64,000 nt of DNA from Gammaproteobacteria bacterium (GTDB taxonomy: Bacteria > Pseudomonadota > Gammaproteobacteria > UBA4575), in NCBI GenBank assembly GCA_028279275.1, contig JANQOB010000018.1:62001-126000 (forward strand), in the 5' to 3' direction. Each line of letters starts with the position of its first letter. The stretch's first letter is position 1. Below, piece after piece: positions 1 to 8,880 of this stretch. The translations under genes and the position numbers were made by a program. The notes under the pieces were generated by a model, which did no database searches, was not told where the DNA came from, and worked only from the letters and a program-made list of their open reading frames with translations.

Positions 1-111
1 TAATGCTGAGGAAATACTCTCGACGGTGGCGCTGTTATAATTCATAACAAGTAATGGAGAATAAATTTAACTATTTAATAACCTTACAGTAGTGCTAAAT
101 ATTTTACATCT
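1..111. other. Upstream flank of senB
   Basis: No complete gene fits here. Plus-strand frame 2 is open from the window edge to a stop at 38-40 and frame 3 to a stop at 45-47, so the 3' end of an upstream gene may lie here. The visible tail is too short to identify. The rest is AT-rich leader before the ATG at 112, with no strong ribosome binding site. Confidence 0.3.
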
Positions 112-1080
112 ATGAAAATACTTCTCATTACTCCTGCTTTACCAAGCGCGCGTGCAGGCAATCGGGTTACCGCCGTGCGTTGGAAAAACATATTAACCGA
201 TCTCGGACATAAGGTTCAGGTTAAAAATAGTCAGGACGATATACAAGAAATATGTAAAAAATCAGACTTAATGCTTGCACTGCATGCATGGCGCAGCGCT
301 AATTCAATAGAAACGTTTAATTACCTTGCCCCAGAAAAACCGCTAATAGTTGCATTGACAGGTACTGACTTATACCGATTTATACACTCACATCCTAAAC
401 CCACATTACGTTCTATAAAACTAGCTGATACATTAATTTCGCTTCATGACTTAGCGCATTTAGCAATCCCTAAAGTTTATCGTAGAAAAGTGAATGTTAT
501 CTATCAATCCGCTAGCTCAGTAAAAAGATCAGTCAATAAAAACAAAAGGTTCTTTGATGCATGTGTGATCGGACACCTGAGAGAAGAGAAAGATCCATTA
601 CGTGCAGCCTATGCAGTGCGAAAATTACCTCAGGAGTCTCGCATCAGAATTAAGCAATTTGGAAAAGCCCACACACTCGCTTGGGCCAAGCGTGCACAAA
701 AAGAAGCAGCTTCAAATGAACGTTATCACTGGTATGGCGAAGTTCCTCATTGGAAAATTCGTCAGCAATATGCCCATGCTGATGTAATGGTATTAAGTTC
801 TAAAATGGAAGGTGGTGCGAACGTTATTTCAGAAGCATGTGTGGCGGGAATGCCCGTAATCGCATCAGATATTGCGGGATCAATTGGCTTATTAGGAAAA
901 AATTATCCTGGTTATTATCCTTACGGTAACACTCAGGGACTGAGCGAGCTGTTACTGAGAGCCGAAACGGACCGAAAATTTTTGGCAAAGCTCGAAAAAG
1001 CTTGTAGAAGTAAGTCTAACCTGTTTACTTATGCTAAAGAAAAAAACAACATGAAAAAATTATTAAGTAAGATCATATGA
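112..1080 (+). CDS. senB: SenB-like selenosugar synthase (GT-B glycosyltransferase)
   Basis: A 322-residue GT-B glycosyltransferase. The N-terminus (MKILLITPALP, then GNRVTAVRW), LMLALHAWRSANSI and LIVALTGTDLY match the family once called TIGR04348 and now known as SenB. In selenoneine synthesis SenB joins selenophosphate to a UDP-sugar to form a selenosugar. The C-terminal donor-site motif is visible near residues 235-250 (GGANVISEACVAGMPVIAS). It is the first of four plus-strand genes; the next starts 59 bases later. The expected partner SenA (EgtB-like) is not in the window and could lie upstream of base 1. A selenophosphate source, the SelD fusion at 6610-8880, is close by. Family assignment is from memory of motifs; substrate is inferred. 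Confidence 0.82.
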   Translation: MKILLITPALPSARAGNRVTAVRWKNILTDLGHKVQVKNSQDDIQEICKKSDLMLALHAWRSANSIETFNYLAPEKPLIVALTGTDLYRFIHSHPKPTLRSIKLADTLISLHDLAHLAIPKVYRRKVNVIYQSASSVKRSVNKNKRFFDACVIGHLREEKDPLRAAYAVRKLPQESRIRIKQFGKAHTLAWAKRAQKEAASNERYHWYGEVPHWKIRQQYAHADVMVLSSKMEGGANVISEACVAGMPVIASDIAGSIGLLGKNYPGYYPYGNTQGLSELLLRAETDRKFLAKLEKACRSKSNLFTYAKEKNNMKKLLSKII

Positions 1081-1139
1081 AATAAGTTTTCCAATATCAT
1101 GGTCTTCTAACTATAGGAGCTAATTGCTAAAAATTCTGA

Positions 1140-1922
1140 ATGATTATTGCAAAATTCATCTTTAACGCGCGCCATCGCAGAGCGTGGTCTAATCCCGAGA
1201 GGAAAATTCAAACATTAGAGAGCTTTGCTCAGACAGAAATCGATGCAGGTGAATCTATACTCAGTGCTCTGCCGTATGTTGACAATCCTAGGCTGCGAAA
1301 ACATTTAGAACGACATGCTAAAGATGAATTGGAGCATGGATATCTATTTAGTGCACAAGCACAAAAATTACGAAAACTACAACCAAACTCATCAAGCATT
1401 TATAAAAAGCCAGATAAACTTTACAACTTATCTAGATTCAAAACTTCAACTGAGCTGAATTCGCATGATTTTTTTTCAGGAGAAAACTATGAAAAATTAG
1501 GTGAAATCACATACGTTGCTATGTTGAATATAGCTGAAGCAAAGGCTGAAAAAGTATTTAGCAAACATCATCAATTATTACACGATGACCCCGAAACATT
1601 TAAAATTTTTGAAAGAATATTAAAAGATGAGCGCTATCATGTTTCATATACAGGTAAATTTCTTACTGAATGGACAAATCAAGGTAAAACCAAGCAGGTA
1701 AAAAAAGCTTTGTCCTTTGCAAAAAAAGCACGCCTTCTGAATAGTATAAAACGAAAAAGTTCTAAAGTGGGTGAAAAAATAGGGTATTTGATTCTGTATA
1801 TTCTTTACTTTACGGCAATCATCCCTTTTGCATTTGCATCCAAAATTAGTCGCACAAAAAAAGGCTGGCAGTATCCTGTAAAAGTTAGTCAAGACCTTAA
1901 ACAAGGTCATTCACAATACTAA
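1140..1922 (+). CDS. Membrane-anchored ferritin-like diiron protein
   Basis: A 260-residue protein with the four-helix diiron pattern of the ferritin-like superfamily: E33 on helix 1, E63xxH66 on helix 2, E133 or E137 on helix 3 and E164xxH167 on helix 4. A single hydrophobic stretch near residues 209-230 would anchor it in the membrane, followed by a basic tail. An in-frame stop directly precedes the ATG, so this is the first possible start; the nearest AGGAG (1115-1119) is about 20 bases upstream, which is far. It lies between senB and the carbamoyltransferase gene, probably in one transcript. Oxidase, oxygenase or desaturase chemistry is possible; the substrate is unknown. Confidence 0.7.
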   Translation: MIIAKFIFNARHRRAWSNPERKIQTLESFAQTEIDAGESILSALPYVDNPRLRKHLERHAKDELEHGYLFSAQAQKLRKLQPNSSSIYKKPDKLYNLSRFKTSTELNSHDFFSGENYEKLGEITYVAMLNIAEAKAEKVFSKHHQLLHDDPETFKIFERILKDERYHVSYTGKFLTEWTNQGKTKQVKKALSFAKKARLLNSIKRKSSKVGEKIGYLILYILYFTAIIPFAFASKISRTKKGWQYPVKVSQDLKQGHSQY

Positions 1923-1939
1923 ACATAAGTAGAAGTATA

Positions 1940-3640
1940 TTGGATATTTTAGGTATATCTGCTTTTTATCATGATGCCGCCGCAGCACTAGTAAGAGATG
2001 GTATTCCTCTAGCAGCTGCACAAGAAGAAAGGTTCACTCAAATAAAAAATGATCCAACATTTCCAATCAATGCGATTAATTTCTGTTTGCAAGAAGGAAG
2101 TGTTTCGATAAACGAAATTGACTGGATCGTTTTTTATGAAAAACCATTACGTAAATTTGAAAGAATACTAGTTACACATCTAAGTCATTTTCCACGCTCT
2201 TCAAAAGCATTCAGTCGAGCAATGTTCTTATGGCTTGGTGACCGCCTTTGGTTAAAAAATCGAATTGCAAGTGAACTTGGGGTTGCCCCCAAAAAAATTC
2301 TTTTTACGGAACACCATCAGTCTCACGCAGCCAGTGCCTTCTTCCCTTCTCCTTTTAGAGATGCTGCTATCTTAACCGTTGATGGTGTTGGCGAATGGGC
2401 AACCACCACTTTTGGCAAGGGATCCGAAAATCATTTAGAAATCATCTCAGAACTACACTTTCCACATTCACTTGGACTTTTATACTCCTCAATTACTGCA
2501 TTTCTTGGATTTCGTGTAAACGAAGGAGAGCAAAAAGTAATGGGCCTTGCAGCTTACGGCAAGCCAGCTTATCAAGACCAAATTCGATCTTTGCTGTCAT
2601 TTTCTAATGACGGAAGTTTTGAACTTGATGTTTCTGCTTTCAGATACCCTTTTGATCCTGAAAAAAGCTTTGGCCCTAAAATAACAAAATTATTAGGCAA
2701 CGAACGCAAACCTGATAATCCCATTTTGTATCAGAGTGGTAATTCAAAACATGCTGATATAGCGGCTAGCGTACAACTAGTATTAGAAGAATGTATGCTT
2801 AAACTTGCCAATCAATTACATCTTCAAGTTCCATCAAAAAACTTATGTCTAGCCGGCGGTGTAGCATTAAACGTAGTGGTCAATAGCAAAATATTAGAGC
2901 AAAGTCCTTTTGAAAATATTTTTATCCAGCCTGCAGCAGGGGATGCAGGTGGGGCACTTGGTGCTGCGCTATATATTTATCATGTTGAACTAAATGAAAA
3001 AAAACGTTTTACCCAAAAACATGCATTTCTGGGTGAAAAGGCCGAAGCAACTAGATCTGTGAGTACACGAAATATATATGAAGAAATTTCTGATGAGGAT
3101 AAATTAATTGAAAATGTTGTTCACAAACTATTAAACCAAAAAACTGTTGGTTGGGTGCAAGGAAAATTTGAATGGGGTCCCCGTAGCTTAGGACACCGCA
3201 GCTTGATTGCCGATCCTCGTAACGTGGAAATGAAACAACACATTAATCAATACATAAAACATCGTGAAATGTTTAGACCTTTTGCCCCTGCAATTACAAA
3301 GGAGAACGCAGATAAATTTTTCGATATCCCAAAAGGAGCTGATTCAGCTGTTCCATTCATGCTGTTATCAGTATTTGCTTTAGAAGAGAAAATCGAATTT
3401 ATGCCCGCTGCTTTACATGTCGACAATACAGCCAGAGTACAAGTAGTTGACAAAGACAGCGACCCATTGTTTCATAAATTAATCTCAAGGTTCGGAGAAC
3501 AAACAGGTGTGCCGATATTATTGAATACTTCTTTAAATCTTCAAGGTCAACCTATGGTTAGGGGCGAAAACCAAGCAACTGATCTATTGCAAAAAAGCCA
3601 GTTAGACTGTTTAGTAGTAGAGAATCGTATATACAATTAA
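1940..3640 (+). CDS. Carbamoyltransferase, NodU/CmcH/TobZ family
   Basis: A 566-residue enzyme of the family that moves a carbamoyl group from carbamoyl phosphate via carbamoyl-adenylate to a hydroxyl on a sugar or other small molecule. The N-terminal Kae1-like domain opens with GISAFYHDAAAALV and carries the metal-binding histidines in HHQSHAASAFF and the nearby GLAAYGKP motif. The smaller C-terminal domain has the typical GPRSLGHRSL and REMFRPFAPA stretches. The start is TTG, chosen because the family begins M(D/N)ILGISAFYHD. It is 17 bases after the diiron gene and 37 before the DUF5989 gene. The acceptor is unknown; the neighbours suggest a sugar or a secreted glycan. Confidence 0.9.
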   Translation: MDILGISAFYHDAAAALVRDGIPLAAAQEERFTQIKNDPTFPINAINFCLQEGSVSINEIDWIVFYEKPLRKFERILVTHLSHFPRSSKAFSRAMFLWLGDRLWLKNRIASELGVAPKKILFTEHHQSHAASAFFPSPFRDAAILTVDGVGEWATTTFGKGSENHLEIISELHFPHSLGLLYSSITAFLGFRVNEGEQKVMGLAAYGKPAYQDQIRSLLSFSNDGSFELDVSAFRYPFDPEKSFGPKITKLLGNERKPDNPILYQSGNSKHADIAASVQLVLEECMLKLANQLHLQVPSKNLCLAGGVALNVVVNSKILEQSPFENIFIQPAAGDAGGALGAALYIYHVELNEKKRFTQKHAFLGEKAEATRSVSTRNIYEEISDEDKLIENVVHKLLNQKTVGWVQGKFEWGPRSLGHRSLIADPRNVEMKQHINQYIKHREMFRPFAPAITKENADKFFDIPKGADSAVPFMLLSVFALEEKIEFMPAALHVDNTARVQVVDKDSDPLFHKLISRFGEQTGVPILLNTSLNLQGQPMVRGENQATDLLQKSQLDCLVVENRIYN

Positions 3641-3677
3641 ACTATGCAGTGTATATTGCTAAATTAAATAAATAAAA

Positions 3678-3860
3678 ATGAAATTTACGCAATCAACGAA
3701 TACTTATATAAGCACTTTTTTAGAGCTAATTATAGGTTTACATAAAAGTGGTTATTGGTGGCTTATACCTTTAATCATTATTTTATTGCCTTTGTCATTC
3801 TTTTTCATACTTGCGCAAGCGGTGCCGATTGTTGCGCCTTTTGTGTATACGCTCTTTTAA
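3678..3860 (+). CDS. DUF5989 family small membrane protein
   Basis: A 60-residue protein with one central membrane segment (about residues 26-50) and the characteristic ending LAQAVPIVAPFVYTLF. Proteins of this family commonly sit directly beside carbamoyltransferase genes, as here, and their function is not known. The ATG follows an AT-rich leader. The stop lies 15 bases from the end of the convergent SGNH gene, leaving little room for a terminator. Whether it is a subunit or anchor for the carbamoyltransferase is inference from position only. Confidence 0.75.
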   Translation: MKFTQSTNTYISTFLELIIGLHKSGYWWLIPLIIILLPLSFFFILAQAVPIVAPFVYTLF

Positions 3861-3875
3861 AAATTTGACTCTTGT

Positions 3876-5003
3876 TTAAGAGCATTTGACTACATGCTTA
3901 ATGTTGCATAGCTCTGTGTATATGGCGTCCGCAATTTTCTCATGCCCTAAGGCAGACCAATGATTATCTTTTTGTATTTGAATTTCTTCACCAGCCGATA
4001 ATGACTCGCGGATTTTTGGCCCTAAATTTATAGTATAAATCCCAAGCTCCTTACCTAAGTTTTCAAAATCTTGTTCTAACTGTGAATAGTTATGCTCAAT
4101 ATTTAACAAAACAAAATGTGTGTTATTTTGCCTGGCAGACTCAGCAAAGTTTTTTATTACTAATTTTGTAAGTTCCCATACCTTGCTGTTTACAGTAAAA
4201 ATACTCTTTTCCTGATAATTCCTAAAGTATCTTAATAATATTCTCATAACTACACTTTTATTCATAAATGAAATTCGATCGACTCCCGCATTATGATCAA
4301 AAAGATCATATTGATTAGGTATAGGTGAACCTGCAAGACTAAGGCCGGTCTCATCTTTCACAAAATATGGTTTGGCGTAAAAAGTAAAACTACTTGTATT
4401 TCTAGGTATATGATGAAATGCAAAAGCCAAGACAATTACATCTAGTGCATAATCTTTAATTTCATTTTCATAGTAAAGCAGCATTTGATCAGTGCCATAA
4501 CCGCGAACACCAAAGTTTAGCACTTGAGCATCATCTAGTTTTTTATCTAAGAGCGATACATAAACTTCATTATCATTTACTGATTCTCCAAAAGTTTGTG
4601 AAGCCCCGATAAAACCAATTTTGAGTCTATTATTTAAATTAAGTAAATCATCGGTATTTTTACCTCTCAGACCATGCTTATTGGTAGAAATAGATACATC
4701 CCACAAACCAGGCTTGATATGTTTTACCCTAGCATTAGGTTTAACTTTCCAACCAAGCTTCTCATCATGTATGTCAAATGAGTACGGACTCGTGATCGTA
4801 CTGTATTTATTATTTTCAGGACGACTTTTCCATATTAAAAAATGATGTTGCTCACTCGATAAGCCATAATACGGCAGGTATAAAAGATCTGCTGAGCTAT
4901 AGTAGTAGCGTACAGAAACCTCTAAAAACAAAAAAGCCGAAATTACTGCAAATATATAACTTAAAATTTTAAAGTTTGAAAAATGATTTTGTCTTTCTAC
5001 CAT
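3876..5003 (-). CDS. SGNH/GDSL hydrolase-like protein, membrane anchored
   Basis: A 375-residue protein with an N-terminal signal anchor (about residues 12-30) and an SGNH-type fold. The nucleophile block is GFIGASQTFGE, with Ser135; NFGVRGYGTDQ fits the glycine block; DNHWSALGHE near the C-terminus supplies the Asp-x-His pair. Such proteins act as esterases or acetyltransferases on extracytoplasmic glycans and lipids. It converges on the carbamoyltransferase operon; SGNH proteins accompany carbamoyltransferase/DUF5989 genes in other glycan clusters. The exact substrate is unknown. Confidence 0.7.
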   Translation of the reverse strand: MVERQNHFSNFKILSYIFAVISAFLFLEVSVRYYYSSADLLYLPYYGLSSEQHHFLIWKSRPENNKYSTITSPYSFDIHDEKLGWKVKPNARVKHIKPGLWDVSISTNKHGLRGKNTDDLLNLNNRLKIGFIGASQTFGESVNDNEVYVSLLDKKLDDAQVLNFGVRGYGTDQMLLYYENEIKDYALDVIVLAFAFHHIPRNTSSFTFYAKPYFVKDETGLSLAGSPIPNQYDLFDHNAGVDRISFMNKSVVMRILLRYFRNYQEKSIFTVNSKVWELTKLVIKNFAESARQNNTHFVLLNIEHNYSQLEQDFENLGKELGIYTINLGPKIRESLSAGEEIQIQKDNHWSALGHEKIADAIYTELCNIKHVVKCS

Positions 5004-5052
5004 CGATCTCGCATGGTTCAGAAATACGATATATCAATTTATTATCATGTAT

Positions 5053-5424
5053 CTAGTTCACAGCAAATTCATGCCAATCACCATTGGATTGTTGGTACTT
5101 AAAGCCATTCTCAGTTATTTTCACACGTGATTTTTTTGTTTTATTAGGTTTTATCTTTAACTTAGCTAGCTGTTTACTCGTTTTTAGATCCAGAATAACA
5201 AATTCAACCTTTTCACTGGTTTTATTTTTCACACGAAACTCATACAAACCAGGCTCTAAATTATTCAAATCCTCAGATGTATCAATAGAATCCTCATTAA
5301 GTATTAATTCTAACTTAATATAATCACTTTTGAGTCCTCCAGCCCCACCACCACCTGCATAGAGAGTAGAGGAAATGAGTAGTAAAAAAGCAAGCAAGGC
5401 TAAGGAAAATATTATTTTATGCAT
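5053..5424 (-). CDS. Small secreted protein, cupredoxin-like fold suspected
   Basis: A 123-residue protein with a clear signal peptide ending near residue 23 (LYAGGGGAGG follows). The stretch LEPGLYEFRVKNKTSEKVEF looks like the middle of a cupredoxin-like beta sandwich, where related proteins read GxYxFxVxNxxxxxHEF. The usual ligand His is Lys-Val here and no Cys/His/Met cluster is present in the mature part, so it is unlikely to bind copper in the standard way. It lies 49 bases upstream of the SGNH gene on the same strand and may share its transcript. Function unknown; the fold call is tentative. Confidence 0.5.
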   Translation of the reverse strand: MHKIIFSLALLAFLLLISSTLYAGGGGAGGLKSDYIKLELILNEDSIDTSEDLNNLEPGLYEFRVKNKTSEKVEFVILDLKTSKQLAKLKIKPNKTKKSRVKITENGFKYQQSNGDWHEFAVN

Positions 5425-5951
5425 ATTACTGTTCCCTTAATTTTTTACGTTAACTCAAATATGACCTTAGATTACAGTATAAAATTTCACACAAGACAAT
5501 AAATGTTTATAAAAATATTTAATCAAAAATAAAAGTATATCTTTGGTCTTAACAATTAAGACATATAAAGTGATAAAGCTTGAAAATCTAGATCATGTTT
5601 GGATACATAGTAACCAAACAATGGTAAATTTTGGTCTGGCAATGAGTGCACTTGCCAATTTAATGGCGAAATTCAAATAATTACTCTGCTTAGTAATCCA
5701 TTAATGTTCCTAATTAACTACATAATGAAGTTTTAATTGTGCATACTTATCACAAGTCGTAGGGTATGGACTGTAGGTGTTTTTTTAAATTGTTTGATAT
5801 CGTAGGCTAACAAACAATACATGCAAATCGACCTGGCGTAACTTAATATCAATGTCTTGGAAAAGTAGAACACTACTCAACGAGACAAATTAACAGCAAA
5901 ACGCAAGATTCGATTCAAAAAGCACCACAATCAAAACATAAGCCTACAAGG
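5425..5951. other. Long intergenic region, no gene recognised
   Basis: About 530 bases of AT-rich sequence between the small secreted protein and the terminator at 5952. No tRNA-like cloverleaf, no ORF with a credible ribosome site and no repeat family was seen. A plus-strand RNA ending at the strong hairpin 5952-5983 would start somewhere in here, but no promoter can be fixed by eye. Confidence 0.4.
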
Positions 5952-5983
5952 AAAGCCCGCTCACACAGTTCAACGCGGGCTTT
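5952..5983. terminator. Intrinsic terminator, probably bidirectional
   Basis: A nine-base-pair GC-rich stem (AAAGCCCGC paired with GCGGGCTTT) around a 14-base loop. On the plus strand it is followed by CTTTTGC. On the minus strand it begins nine bases after the stop of the DUF2238 gene, so it most likely ends the selD-DUF2238 transcript. It could also end a plus-strand RNA from the gap upstream. Confidence 0.75.
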
Positions 5984-5991
5984 CTTTTGCT

Positions 5992-6591
5992 CTAGGACTT
6001 TATTTGGACCAATTGCTTGTCATGTAACTTAGACAAAGTAAGCAAACCTATAATTGCGCCTAACAAGGCTAAACCCATATCAGACTGTGTATCCCATTCA
6101 TATCCTTGTGTTGCTAAAAACGCATCTGCGCCTTCTCCAATTGCAAGCGCTGCCCACCATTCTATGAGCTCATAAAATGCACTAAAAGCAAGACAAAAAC
6201 TAATACAGAAAAAATATTGCCAAAAAGAATTTGGAATGATGTTTTTACGGATAATAATCTCTCGCGCAATCAGTGCAGGGACAAAACCTTGAGCAAAATG
6301 TCCTACCTTGTCGTAATTATTTCTAGCAAACCCAAACCATTCTTTAAAATAGTCAAATAATGGCACTTCTGCATAAGTATAATGACCGCCAACCATCAAG
6401 ATTACACAATGAATCAAAATTAAAATATATAATAGCGGAGTCAGTCGAAAAGAATTATATGTAAACACTAACACAACAATTCCGATGATTGCTGGTAACA
6501 CTTCAAAGAACCAAGTGATTTGGTCTTTAGGGTGAATTGCAGACCATATAAAGACTATAAAAAAAACACCAAGCCAAGCAACTTTATACAT
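5992..6591 (-). CDS. DUF2238 (YjdF-type) integral membrane protein
   Basis: A 199-residue protein with about six membrane segments and the DUF2238 signature: HYTYAEVPLFDY, then RNNYDKVGHFAQGFVPAL, SAFYELIEWW and TQGYEWDTQSDM. Conserved His and Glu residues in the membrane part resemble those of membrane-bound hydrolases, but no function has been established for the family. It starts 18 bases after the selD fusion stop on the same strand, so the two are probably co-transcribed. A selenium role would be inference from that position alone. Confidence 0.8.
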   Translation of the reverse strand: MYKVAWLGVFFIVFIWSAIHPKDQITWFFEVLPAIIGIVVLVFTYNSFRLTPLLYILILIHCVILMVGGHYTYAEVPLFDYFKEWFGFARNNYDKVGHFAQGFVPALIAREIIIRKNIIPNSFWQYFFCISFCLAFSAFYELIEWWAALAIGEGADAFLATQGYEWDTQSDMGLALLGAIIGLLTLSKLHDKQLVQIKS

Positions 6592-6609
6592 ACATTGCTA
6601 ATAATTCGT

Positions 6610-8880
6610 TTAATCTAGGTTTATATAAATACTTTCTACAGTTGCACCTTCTTGCTCCACATAGCCAATCGAACACGCCTCTGAATAACCCAGGCTTTGC
6701 AGTTCAGTTATACAGGCTTGTTCATATTGTTTAGGTAAGCTTGCAAGTAAACCACCTGCAGTCTGTGGATCAAACAATAATGGATAGTAAGAATGTTTTA
6801 CGGCGTCTTCCTGATTTTTAATTGCTCTACGTAAACGAACGTTTGAAGGCTGCAAAGAACTAAAAATTCCTAGCTGCATAGATTCCATTGCACCTTTTAA
6901 AATAGGTAAAGAATTAATATCAATATGAATATCAACACCTCCTACTCGCAACATTTCAACTAAGTGGCCCAGCACACCAAATCCTGTTACATCTGTACAA
7001 GCATGCACATCGTATTTATATAAACATTGTGCAGCAGCATGATTTGATTGAATCATTGAATCAATTGCTTTAGAAACCCAACGCCCTTTTGCTTTGCCTC
7101 GCATATCTGCTGCGAATAATGTTCCAGTACCTATCGGCTTTGTTAGGATGATAGTATCACCATCTTGCATTCCACTTTTTGCTAATAGTTTTTCTTTTTC
7201 AACTATGCCTGTAACACTCAAACCAAATGATAATTCAGCACCCTCGCTAGAGTGTCCTCCAACAAGTGCAGCATTATGTTGATTAAGAACTTGTAATGCA
7301 CCCTGCATCATCTGCTGTAATTGTTGTTCTACCATTTGTTCTTTCCCATACGGCACAGTTGCAATCGCCATGGCAGCTTGTGCTTCTGCACCCATCGCAA
7401 ACACATCACCTAAACTATGATTTGCAGCAATTTGACCAAACACATATGGATCATCAATAAACGAACGAAAATAATCCACAGATTGCACCTGAACTTTTCC
7501 TTCAGGTACTTGCAAAACCGCAGCGTCATCTGGCGCATCCAAACCTAAAACTACATCCTCACGTTTTATAGTTGTTAATTTATTCACAACCCGGCTAAGC
7601 ACATTACTGCCAACTTTTGCACCACAACCGCCACAACGCATCGCAATTGCGGAAATCTCTTTTAATGTGTCTTTATTGGCTAATTCGCTATGTAATGGTT
7701 CTGGCTCCTCATCCATTTCGGGAAGCTGCTGATACTTACGCATGAATTCACGATCAATATAGTCTTTAAGTTTCCATATCCATGCACCTTCAAAAGTAAA
7801 GATACCTCTAGAGCCAATTGCACACTTATCTCCGGTACTGATTAAACTTAAAAAACTAATCTGTGGAACATGTTTTTTTAAAGGTTTATTGGTAAGCGCA
7901 CGTCGAATGTTTTTATATAAAGGCGGGCCCTGTCGAACCGCGAATACCCCTGATTTAGGTCGCGGATAATCCACAACTGAAGCTATATCACCTGCCGCAA
8001 AAACGTCTACATGAGAAATAGATTGCAATGAATCATTCACTGCAACAAAACCGCGGTCATCGACGGCCAGTCCTGATTCCTTATACCAACCGGGGGCAGA
8101 TGCATGTGTGGCCCAGATAATGGCATCCGCTTGCAATATTTGACCATCATCTAATTCGATAGCATTGGCGTTTACGCGTTTAGCTTTACTTCCTTTATGT
8201 ATTTTGATTTCACGCTCTGCTAGTACACGACGAAATCGCTTTTGTATCGAATTATTGTGTGTAGCCAGTATAGGTCCTGTGCCCGTTATTAAATCAAACT
8301 GCAAGTTATCATTTGTGCAAGAATTCTCTCGTAGTAAATTATGCAAATGGAATTGCGTAGCAAGCGCGACTTCCACTCCTCCAGCACCTGCACCCACAAC
8401 AACTACTTTAAAATCTCCCTTGCGTGAAAGCACTTGTTGCATGAGTTCTTCCCACCCTTGTAAAAACTCGTTAATGGGTTTTACGGCGAGTGCATGTTCT
8501 TTTGAGCCGGGAACTTCAATATGTGATGGCGTTGAACCTGTATTAATAGAAAGTACATCATAACGAATAGGTGGGCGATCACCGCAAATAACATTTTTAT
8601 CTTCAAGTTGTATATAAGTAGCGGGTGCATGAATAAGTCTTGCACCACAAAACTTTGCTAGCGGGCGCAAATCAATATGACTTTCGTCATAACTATAATG
8701 TCCGGCAATATAGCCCGGTAACATTCCTGAATACGGGGTGTGTACATCACGTGTAATCAAAGTAATTTGTAAACCAGCTAATGGTTTCATGCCAAATTTC
8801 TTCAACACAGCCACATGACTATGTCCGCCACCAATTAATACTAAATCCTTAATAACCGGAGTGTTTTTAACTGACTGCAA
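6610..8880 (-). CDS. selD: SelD fused to an N-terminal pyridine nucleotide-disulfide oxidoreductase
   Basis: A 756-residue two-domain protein. Residues 1 to about 390 form an FAD/NAD(P)-binding oxidoreductase related to NDH-2 (LIGGGHSHVAVL at 15-26; VVGAGAGGVEVA at 161-172; FAAGDIA near 294-300), matching the known 'N-term to SelD' family (TIGR03169). Residues from about 405 form selenide, water dikinase, which makes selenophosphate from selenide and ATP. The active site is CGGCGAKVG with Cys419 and Lys422; no in-frame TGA is present, so this SelD is a Cys form. The oxidoreductase may feed reduced selenium to the kinase domain, though this is inferred. Users of selenophosphate in reach include SenB at 112-1080; selA, selU and SenA are not in the window. 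Confidence 0.93.
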   Translation of the reverse strand: MQSVKNTPVIKDLVLIGGGHSHVAVLKKFGMKPLAGLQITLITRDVHTPYSGMLPGYIAGHYSYDESHIDLRPLAKFCGARLIHAPATYIQLEDKNVICGDRPPIRYDVLSINTGSTPSHIEVPGSKEHALAVKPINEFLQGWEELMQQVLSRKGDFKVVVVGAGAGGVEVALATQFHLHNLLRENSCTNDNLQFDLITGTGPILATHNNSIQKRFRRVLAEREIKIHKGSKAKRVNANAIELDDGQILQADAIIWATHASAPGWYKESGLAVDDRGFVAVNDSLQSISHVDVFAAGDIASVVDYPRPKSGVFAVRQGPPLYKNIRRALTNKPLKKHVPQISFLSLISTGDKCAIGSRGIFTFEGAWIWKLKDYIDREFMRKYQQLPEMDEEPEPLHSELANKDTLKEISAIAMRCGGCGAKVGSNVLSRVVNKLTTIKREDVVLGLDAPDDAAVLQVPEGKVQVQSVDYFRSFIDDPYVFGQIAANHSLGDVFAMGAEAQAAMAIATVPYGKEQMVEQQLQQMMQGALQVLNQHNAALVGGHSSEGAELSFGLSVTGIVEKEKLLAKSGMQDGDTIILTKPIGTGTLFAADMRGKAKGRWVSKAIDSMIQSNHAAAQCLYKYDVHACTDVTGFGVLGHLVEMLRVGGVDIHIDINSLPILKGAMESMQLGIFSSLQPSNVRLRRAIKNQEDAVKHSYYPLLFDPQTAGGLLASLPKQYEQACITELQSLGYSEACSIGYVEQEGATVESIYINLD

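Follow-up and report, generated by a model that had tools for sequence, protein, structure and literature searches.

Selenoneine is a selenium antioxidant of marine animal tissue, and its bacterial pathway was worked out in a betaproteobacterium (PMC9814287); excerpts of PMC13188914 and PMC12631010 also mention studies of 2022 (Nature) and 2024 (Nature Chemistry). In the Variovorax paradoxus sen cluster (senA, senB, and senC), SenA, SenB, and a SelD-type enzyme are encoded together. The same holds for the locus described here, which opens a gammaproteobacterial stretch of 64 000 nucleotides (the window: bases 62001–126000 of contig JANQOB010000018.1, here C3, from a 2.70-Mb draft genome that is 94.7% complete). 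Unlike the V. paradoxus enzyme, the window SelD forms a fusion with an NADH-dehydrogenase-like domain. Such fusions (Ndh-SelD) have a literature of their own, cited here from excerpts: Zhang et al. (2008) proposed that SelD is served with a selenium compound reduced by the NADH oxidoreductase (PMC2432076); the same authors state in 2008 that all Ndh-SelD fusions have a CxxC motif, that in ocean samples ∼40% of the Cys-type SelDs are such fusions, and that their function is “not fully clear” (PMC2398784); and Ndh-SelD is by far the commonest type of SelD fusion (Mariotti 2015, PMC4561486). In these excerpts the older papers link Ndh-SelD to selenophosphate supply in general, whereas here the fusion is tied to SenB by gene neighborhood and co-occurrence.

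Families were assigned by the cut-offs, in bits, of curated NCBIfam and Pfam profiles. We put the probability at roughly 0.86 that this is a selenoneine-type sen locus, consisting of senA, senB, and a selD fusion 5.5 kb off, with egtD elsewhere in the genome, and predicted to lead from selenide and hercynine to selenoneine. A sequence-only reading of the window had proposed a SenB-type selenosugar synthase near a SelD fusion; both of its reading frames are present as given, and both family assignments hold. The main features are as follows, L004 being a fetched piece that includes the DNA 5′ of window base 1.

1–45, minus strand: first bases of senA, which encodes a selenoneine synthase of 439 aa (whole gene L004:10726–12045; NF041186, 484 bits, cut-off 420)
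46–111, no strand: gap of 66 bp between the divergent senA and senB start codons, from the frame positions
112–1080, plus strand: senB, selenosugar synthase, a GT4 Se-glycosyltransferase, 322 aa (TIGR04348, 392.5 bits, cut-off 300)
6610–8880, minus strand: selD with an N-terminal NADH-dehydrogenase-like domain, the SenC equivalent, 756 aa, TTG start (TIGR03169, 479 bits, cut-off 310; TIGR00476, 306.7 bits, cut-off 125)
7732–8847, minus strand: NAD(P)H/flavin adenine dinucleotide (FAD) oxidoreductase domain, residues 12–383 (TIGR03169 match range)
6727–7641, minus strand: SelD domain, residues 414–718 (TIGR00476 match range)
7624–7635, minus strand: CxxC motif C416–C419 of the SelD catalytic loop, invariant in the fusion rows

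The profile score and the residues of the 112–1080 protein support its assignment as SenB, with selenosugar synthesis from selenophosphate and a UDP-sugar as the predicted reaction. When it is aligned with the solved Variovorax SenB (8jjn, 180 bits), window residues N17, T20, H58, R61, T85, R157, K160, and E233 correspond to Variovorax N20, T23, H58, R61, T85, R155, K158, and E231. The catalytic residues are thus the same in the two enzymes, and the donor, acceptor, and Se–P-cleavage residues (N20, T23, H58, R61, T85, K158, and E231 in Variovorax numbering) are all kept; mutagenesis described in an excerpt of PMC10891094 indicates that they matter for these three functions. Across 16 aligned rows, N17, H58, R61, T85, K160, and E233 are invariant (16/16), while T20 is replaced by S in two. 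The window SenB has an EGGAN motif where Variovorax has EGGAH; with Variovorax set aside, 95 of 96 SenB rows show EGGAN and one is without the motif. The sequence-only reading had named phylogeny as a check on this gene; our tree, which carries long-branch warnings, places the solved Variovorax SenB within these SenBs and sets five other GT4 enzymes of the order apart. None of 14 control genomes passes the TIGR04348 cut-off, and the senA–senB–selD neighborhood is also found in relatives of the window genome; for both reasons we do not attribute the pairing of senB and SelD to chance.

SenA, which the same reading had suggested looking for upstream, is indeed there: its frame runs upstream from window base 45. 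It passes the SenA model and misses those for EgtB (337.7 bits, cut-off 360) and OvoA (154.1 bits, cut-off 400). Residues H51, H133, and H137, presumably the three iron-ligand histidines of the EgtB fold, are kept in 74/74 rows of the SenA group (69 distinct) and align with the EgtB, SenA, and OvsA references. It is the sole strong EgtB-like enzyme found in the window genome, where the next match to the SenA model reaches 44.7 bits. The window protein differs from the solved Variovorax SenA in having a region at about residues 315–365 that the latter is without. 

The SelD half of the fusion carries the residues expected of a selenophosphate synthetase. C416, C419, and K422 are invariant in 53/53 fusion rows (49/49 distinct); C419 and K422 align with C17 and K20 of E. 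coli SelD (3u0o), as do the conserved aspartates with theirs, and we take C419, K422, and the aspartates to be the catalytic SelD residues. A look-alike fusion family, TIGR04369 (“fusion_not_SelD”), was ruled out, its cut-off of 700 being missed at 484.4 bits. An AlphaFold model built with 38 aligned sequences (predicted local distance difference test [pLDDT] 87.1, predicted template-modeling score [pTM] 0.87) has halves that match SelD (2yye, 3u0o) and YjlD/type II NADH dehydrogenases, respectively; pLDDT falls below 50 in the catalytic loop (411–428) and in stretches 1–4 and 675–679. Among the cysteines of the N-terminal domain, C99 alone is frequent, in 37/53 rows (34/49 distinct). We rejected sulfide:quinone-reductase-type chemistry for this domain on that ground, and because YjlD/type II NADH dehydrogenases rank above sulfide:quinone reductases among its matches. 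The domain order and the CxxC motif are those of the Ndh-SelD fusions already described (Zhang and Gladyshev 2008; Mariotti 2015; TIGR03169).

The remaining enzyme of the predicted route, EgtD, is encoded on contig C5 (G000:C5:250051–250962; TIGR03438, 342.8 bits, cut-off 290.9). With SenA, SenB, SelD, and EgtD found, the genome has those steps to selenoneine, together with one other likely user of selenophosphate (SelU, below). We compared 19 genomes of the order, belonging to one family and six genera, and fetched 16 related loci. SenB is over cut-off in 16 of these genomes, SelD in 17, and SenA and EgtD in 13 each; a SenA at a contig edge (G009) and a truncated EgtD (G005) are further, cut copies that score under it. 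With the cut copies counted, SenA and EgtD are both found in 14/19 genomes and neither in 5/19 (G006, G007, G011, G012, and G013; Fisher P = 8.6e-5, this and all later P-values being uncorrected for kinship). These five genomes are 77–91% complete and the two genes are adjacent in some relatives, so their co-absence could partly reflect missing sequence. In L047 and L051, EgtD is flanked by SenA on one side and the SelD fusion on the other. A whole or cut SelD shares a piece with senB in 13/16 related loci, and the three misses (L046, L052, and L060) lie near a contig edge. One genus-mate (G001) has SenA and SenB rows identical to those of the window genome. The upstream SenA, the placement of SenB in the tree, and this recurrent pairing support the interpretation as a selenium locus.

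Beyond the order, we scanned genome contigs with the SenB alignment and kept the best 80 of at least 577 confirmed stretches. These named loci were seeded on the SenB of the window family and lean towards its kin, with a few contigs in common; many are short, and a subset of 40 has at least 5 kb on either side of senB. SenA or OvsA is present in 66/80 and the oxidoreductase domain in 53/80, with EgtD in 10/80; the counts among the 40 well-flanked loci are 34, 30, and 7. In 65/80, SenA is divergent and within 1 kb 5′ of SenB. For a broader view, 369 genomes were drawn evenly from the class. SenB passes in 23 of them, and 57 have a TIGR03169 match at E ≤ 1e-50, the oxidoreductase domain being found in 22/23 SenB genomes versus 35/346 others (P = 5e-19). 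Frames of at least 650 aa, taken as full fusions with the SelD half unchecked, occur in 20/23 versus 19/346 (P = 2e-19). The three SenB genomes without such a frame have an unfused frame of 446 aa (G124), a frame of 506 aa at a contig edge (G359), or none (G200, 87% complete). In 18/22 genomes the oxidoreductase domain and senB are on one contig, at most 10 kb apart; in G060, G266, G306, and G362 they are on different contigs. Co-occurrence and neighborhood thus link the Ndh-SelD fusion to selenosugar metabolism.

In the pathway that we propose, the SelD domain would use ATP to turn selenide into selenophosphate, and SenB would attach the selenium to the sugar moiety of a UDP-sugar with loss of the phosphate. 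Hercynine would come from trimethylation of histidine by EgtD, in a route that is predicted here. SenA, a non-heme iron enzyme, would couple selenosugar and hercynine oxidatively, and the resulting selenoxide would break down to selenoneine, as in V. paradoxus. With the help of NAD(P)H and FAD, the oxidoreductase domain probably provides the CxxC loop of its SelD partner with reduced selenium, which is the least supported step of the scheme; the FAD domain, being without a conserved cysteine pair, would hand electrons to selenium held on that CxxC. Part of the selenophosphate is likely to go to SelU for 2-selenouridine in tRNA.

Several observations weigh against a selenoneine-type locus as just outlined. 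The exact GHLRxxK motif is missing from 4/97 SenB rows. The window egtD lies outside the sen locus, and EgtD is inside only seven of the 40 well-flanked named loci; the oxidoreductase domain is missing from 10 of these 40. One relative (G005, locus L052) has senA and senB and yet no SelD over cut-off genome-wide, its contig ending at the expected site. SelU in the window genome also needs selenophosphate, and 19 of the 39 presumed full-length fusion frames are in genomes without SenB. Finally, the best match of the window SenA in the Protein Data Bank is OvsA, at 330 bits versus 229 for the solved Variovorax SenA, and its identity is 40.6% to solved OvsA (421 columns) versus 38.4% to solved SenA (367 columns).

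These last figures mean that the SenA sequence alone does not settle the product, and they are what speaks for ovoselenol, which would be made if SenA works like OvsA on histidine and the ring nitrogen is then methylated. The OvoA-type N-methyltransferase for such a step (TIGR04345) is, however, over cut-off in 0/19 genomes of the order, with a best score of 26.1 bits in the window genome, and EgtD passes in 13 of the 19 and is truncated in a 14th. A contrasting locus from Cocleimonas has the following position and content.

L130:384–7663, strand not given: ovoselenol-like locus with an OvsA-like enzyme, a TIGR04345 methyltransferase, SenB, a stand-alone SelD, and a SaoE-like permease

It has SenB, SelD, and an EgtB-like selenoxide synthase in common with the window locus, and differs in its own methyltransferase (309.6 bits, cut-off 170), in its stand-alone SelD, and in an enzyme of the OvsA clade that is 56.6% identical to solved OvsA and, at 412 bits, falls short of the 420 required for SenA; the permease match (134 bits) is below its cut-off of 325. 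In the SenA tree, OvsA and the L130 enzyme form a clade separate from the window group (support 100/100); the tree carries long-branch warnings, with the Variovorax SenA on a long branch (2.99) and its placement unsure. Given the methyltransferase result and the L130 contrast, we favor selenoneine and reject ovoselenol as unlikely. A relative of the L130 methyltransferase lies on one 17-kb piece with a SelD fusion in L134, so more than one end product may go with the fusion.

The family itself holds two SenA/SenB groups: g4 (L047 and L051) falls with Thioalkalivibrio and Thiohalophilus types, as against L048–L050, and g1, g3, and g6 form a clade of their own. The split within one family suggests replacement or transfer.

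SelU (MnmH, the tRNA 2-selenouridine synthase) is encoded on contig C18 (332.6 bits, cut-off 219.75), in a genome-wide search that covered the window genome; SelA was not found in that whole genome. A search for tRNA-Sec gave 14 matches in the genome and none at the gathering score; by ARAGORN the best eight are Leu, Ser, Tyr, or Arg tRNAs, and the other six were not examined. The sequence-only reading had held SenB to be the only visible user of selenophosphate, and had proposed a genome check for selA and selU; the statement stands within the window and fails for the genome, where SelU makes SenB not the sole likely user. One might then suppose that the SelD fusion mainly serves SelU, its position near senB being incidental, an idea that the fusion frames in genomes without SenB would also fit; these frames indicate that the fusion is not exclusive to the SenB pathway and has other uses. 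We nevertheless consider it improbable that SelU is its main client here: SelU is on another contig, none of the 80 named SenB loci contains a SelU relative, most related loci have senB and SelD on one piece with misses only near contig edges, and full-length frames are concentrated in SenB genomes as counted above.

A sulfur pathway resembling that to ergothioneine, with SenA acting as an EgtB and SenB as an ordinary glycosyltransferase, would be in keeping with the near-miss of SenA to the EgtB model, with the membership of SenB in GT4, and with the naming of two listed SenA relatives (P0037 and P0083) as EgtB by their sources, from a homologue search that yielded at least 120 close relatives, of which few carry names. 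It is nonetheless very improbable. SenA is below the EgtB cut-off and above that for SenA, and the SelD residues, the acceptor-pocket residues of SenB, and a putative selenate transporter in relatives indicate selenium; an excerpt of PMC10702425 reports that Variovorax SenB disfavors thiophosphate 10–20 fold. The transporter is of the phosphonate ABC type and adjoins senB in L134, where its binding protein passes the putative selenate model TIGR04553 (390 bits, cut-off 250). Relatives of this binding protein and its permease were found by tblastn in 18/80 SenB loci, L134 included; the window and L004 contain no match to either.

The following genes lie between senB and the selD fusion.

1140–1922, plus strand: “ferritin-like” protein directly after senB, named from E/H motifs only
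1940–3640, plus strand: carbamoyltransferase of the NodU/CmcH type, after the ferritin-like gene (PF02543, 284 bits; PF16861, 200.9 bits)
3876–5003, strand not given: SGNH/AlgX-like protein, a weak match below cut-off
5992–6591, minus strand: DUF2238 membrane protein, which follows selD on its strand after 18 bp (PF09997, 198 bits)

The DUF2238 gene adjoins selD or senB in G001, G002, G003, and G005. The ferritin-like protein has no Pfam or NCBIfam match. It and the carbamoyltransferase follow senB on one strand with gaps of 59 and 17 bp, so the three genes possibly form one transcript, and the block is kept in G005. This arrangement would suit a role for the two proteins in tailoring the selenosugar or selenoneine to a carbamoylated selenometabolite. 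Relatives of the pair, however, occur in only 1/16 related loci (that of G005) and 0/80 named SenB loci, and three genomes of the same genus have senB and selD without the cassette; we therefore give tailoring little credence and reject the carbamoyltransferase cassette as a core part of the locus. To judge from their distribution, the ferritin-like and carbamoyltransferase genes look accessory to the sen locus. Since an SGNH-like gene comes next, they may alternatively be surface-sugar genes. The carbamoyltransferase and SGNH/AlgX-like genes occur here and in G005, and not in G001, G002, or G003, as in a variable insert.

Farther out, ∼8.4–11.5 kb upstream of the window (L004:2598–3560 and 453–2582), lie an ArsS-type radical SAM protein (TIGR04167, 469.6 bits) and, ahead of it, a mercuric-reductase-like protein whose N-terminal part is membrane-bound by prediction. 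An RND efflux pair follows, and ArsS is on one piece with senA and senB in 5/16 related loci.

In three genomes of the order (G006, G011, and G012; loci L057, L058, and L059), senB adjoins the SelD fusion; in none of the three does a SenA pass the cut-off, nor was EgtD found. The fusion of L058 is split over two frames. The end point there may be the selenosugar or another product. Five further loci, mostly Alphaproteobacterial (L172, L190, L191, L194, and L195), carry SenB and the SelD fusion on a piece that lacks SenA. Their neighbors are an amidohydrolase, the large subunit of a molybdenum hydroxylase, and an AllG-like protein (annotated on L195), and they also carry relatives of the putative selenate transporter.

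What makes this sen cluster a variant is its use of an Ndh-SelD fusion as the probable maker of selenophosphate, with a chemistry that is predicted. An excerpt of a review that treats SelD, selenoneine, and the fusion (PMC13188914) does not connect Ndh-SelD with SenB; priority is uncertain, as this comparison did not cover the founding selenoneine paper. Selenoneine goes unmentioned in the excerpts of the sponge and symbiont papers listed. More speculatively, and with real doubt, Ndh-SelD might have evolved together with SenB as a self-contained selenium activator driven by NADH: the FAD domain, which has no invariant cysteine, would reduce selenium on the CxxC, and selenide would pass through selenophosphate to selenosugar without free toxic selenide, feeding a further selenosugar-derived metabolite where SenA is not seen (G006, G011, and G012, and Alphaproteobacterial loci such as L195). 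If so, the abundance of the fusion in the ocean would mark a large bacterial output of selenosugar and selenoneine. Should the prediction of the pathway hold, many uncultured Gammaproteobacteria and Alphaproteobacteria would be able to make selenoneine, and the Ndh-SelD fusion would gain a specific job, that of feeding SenB.

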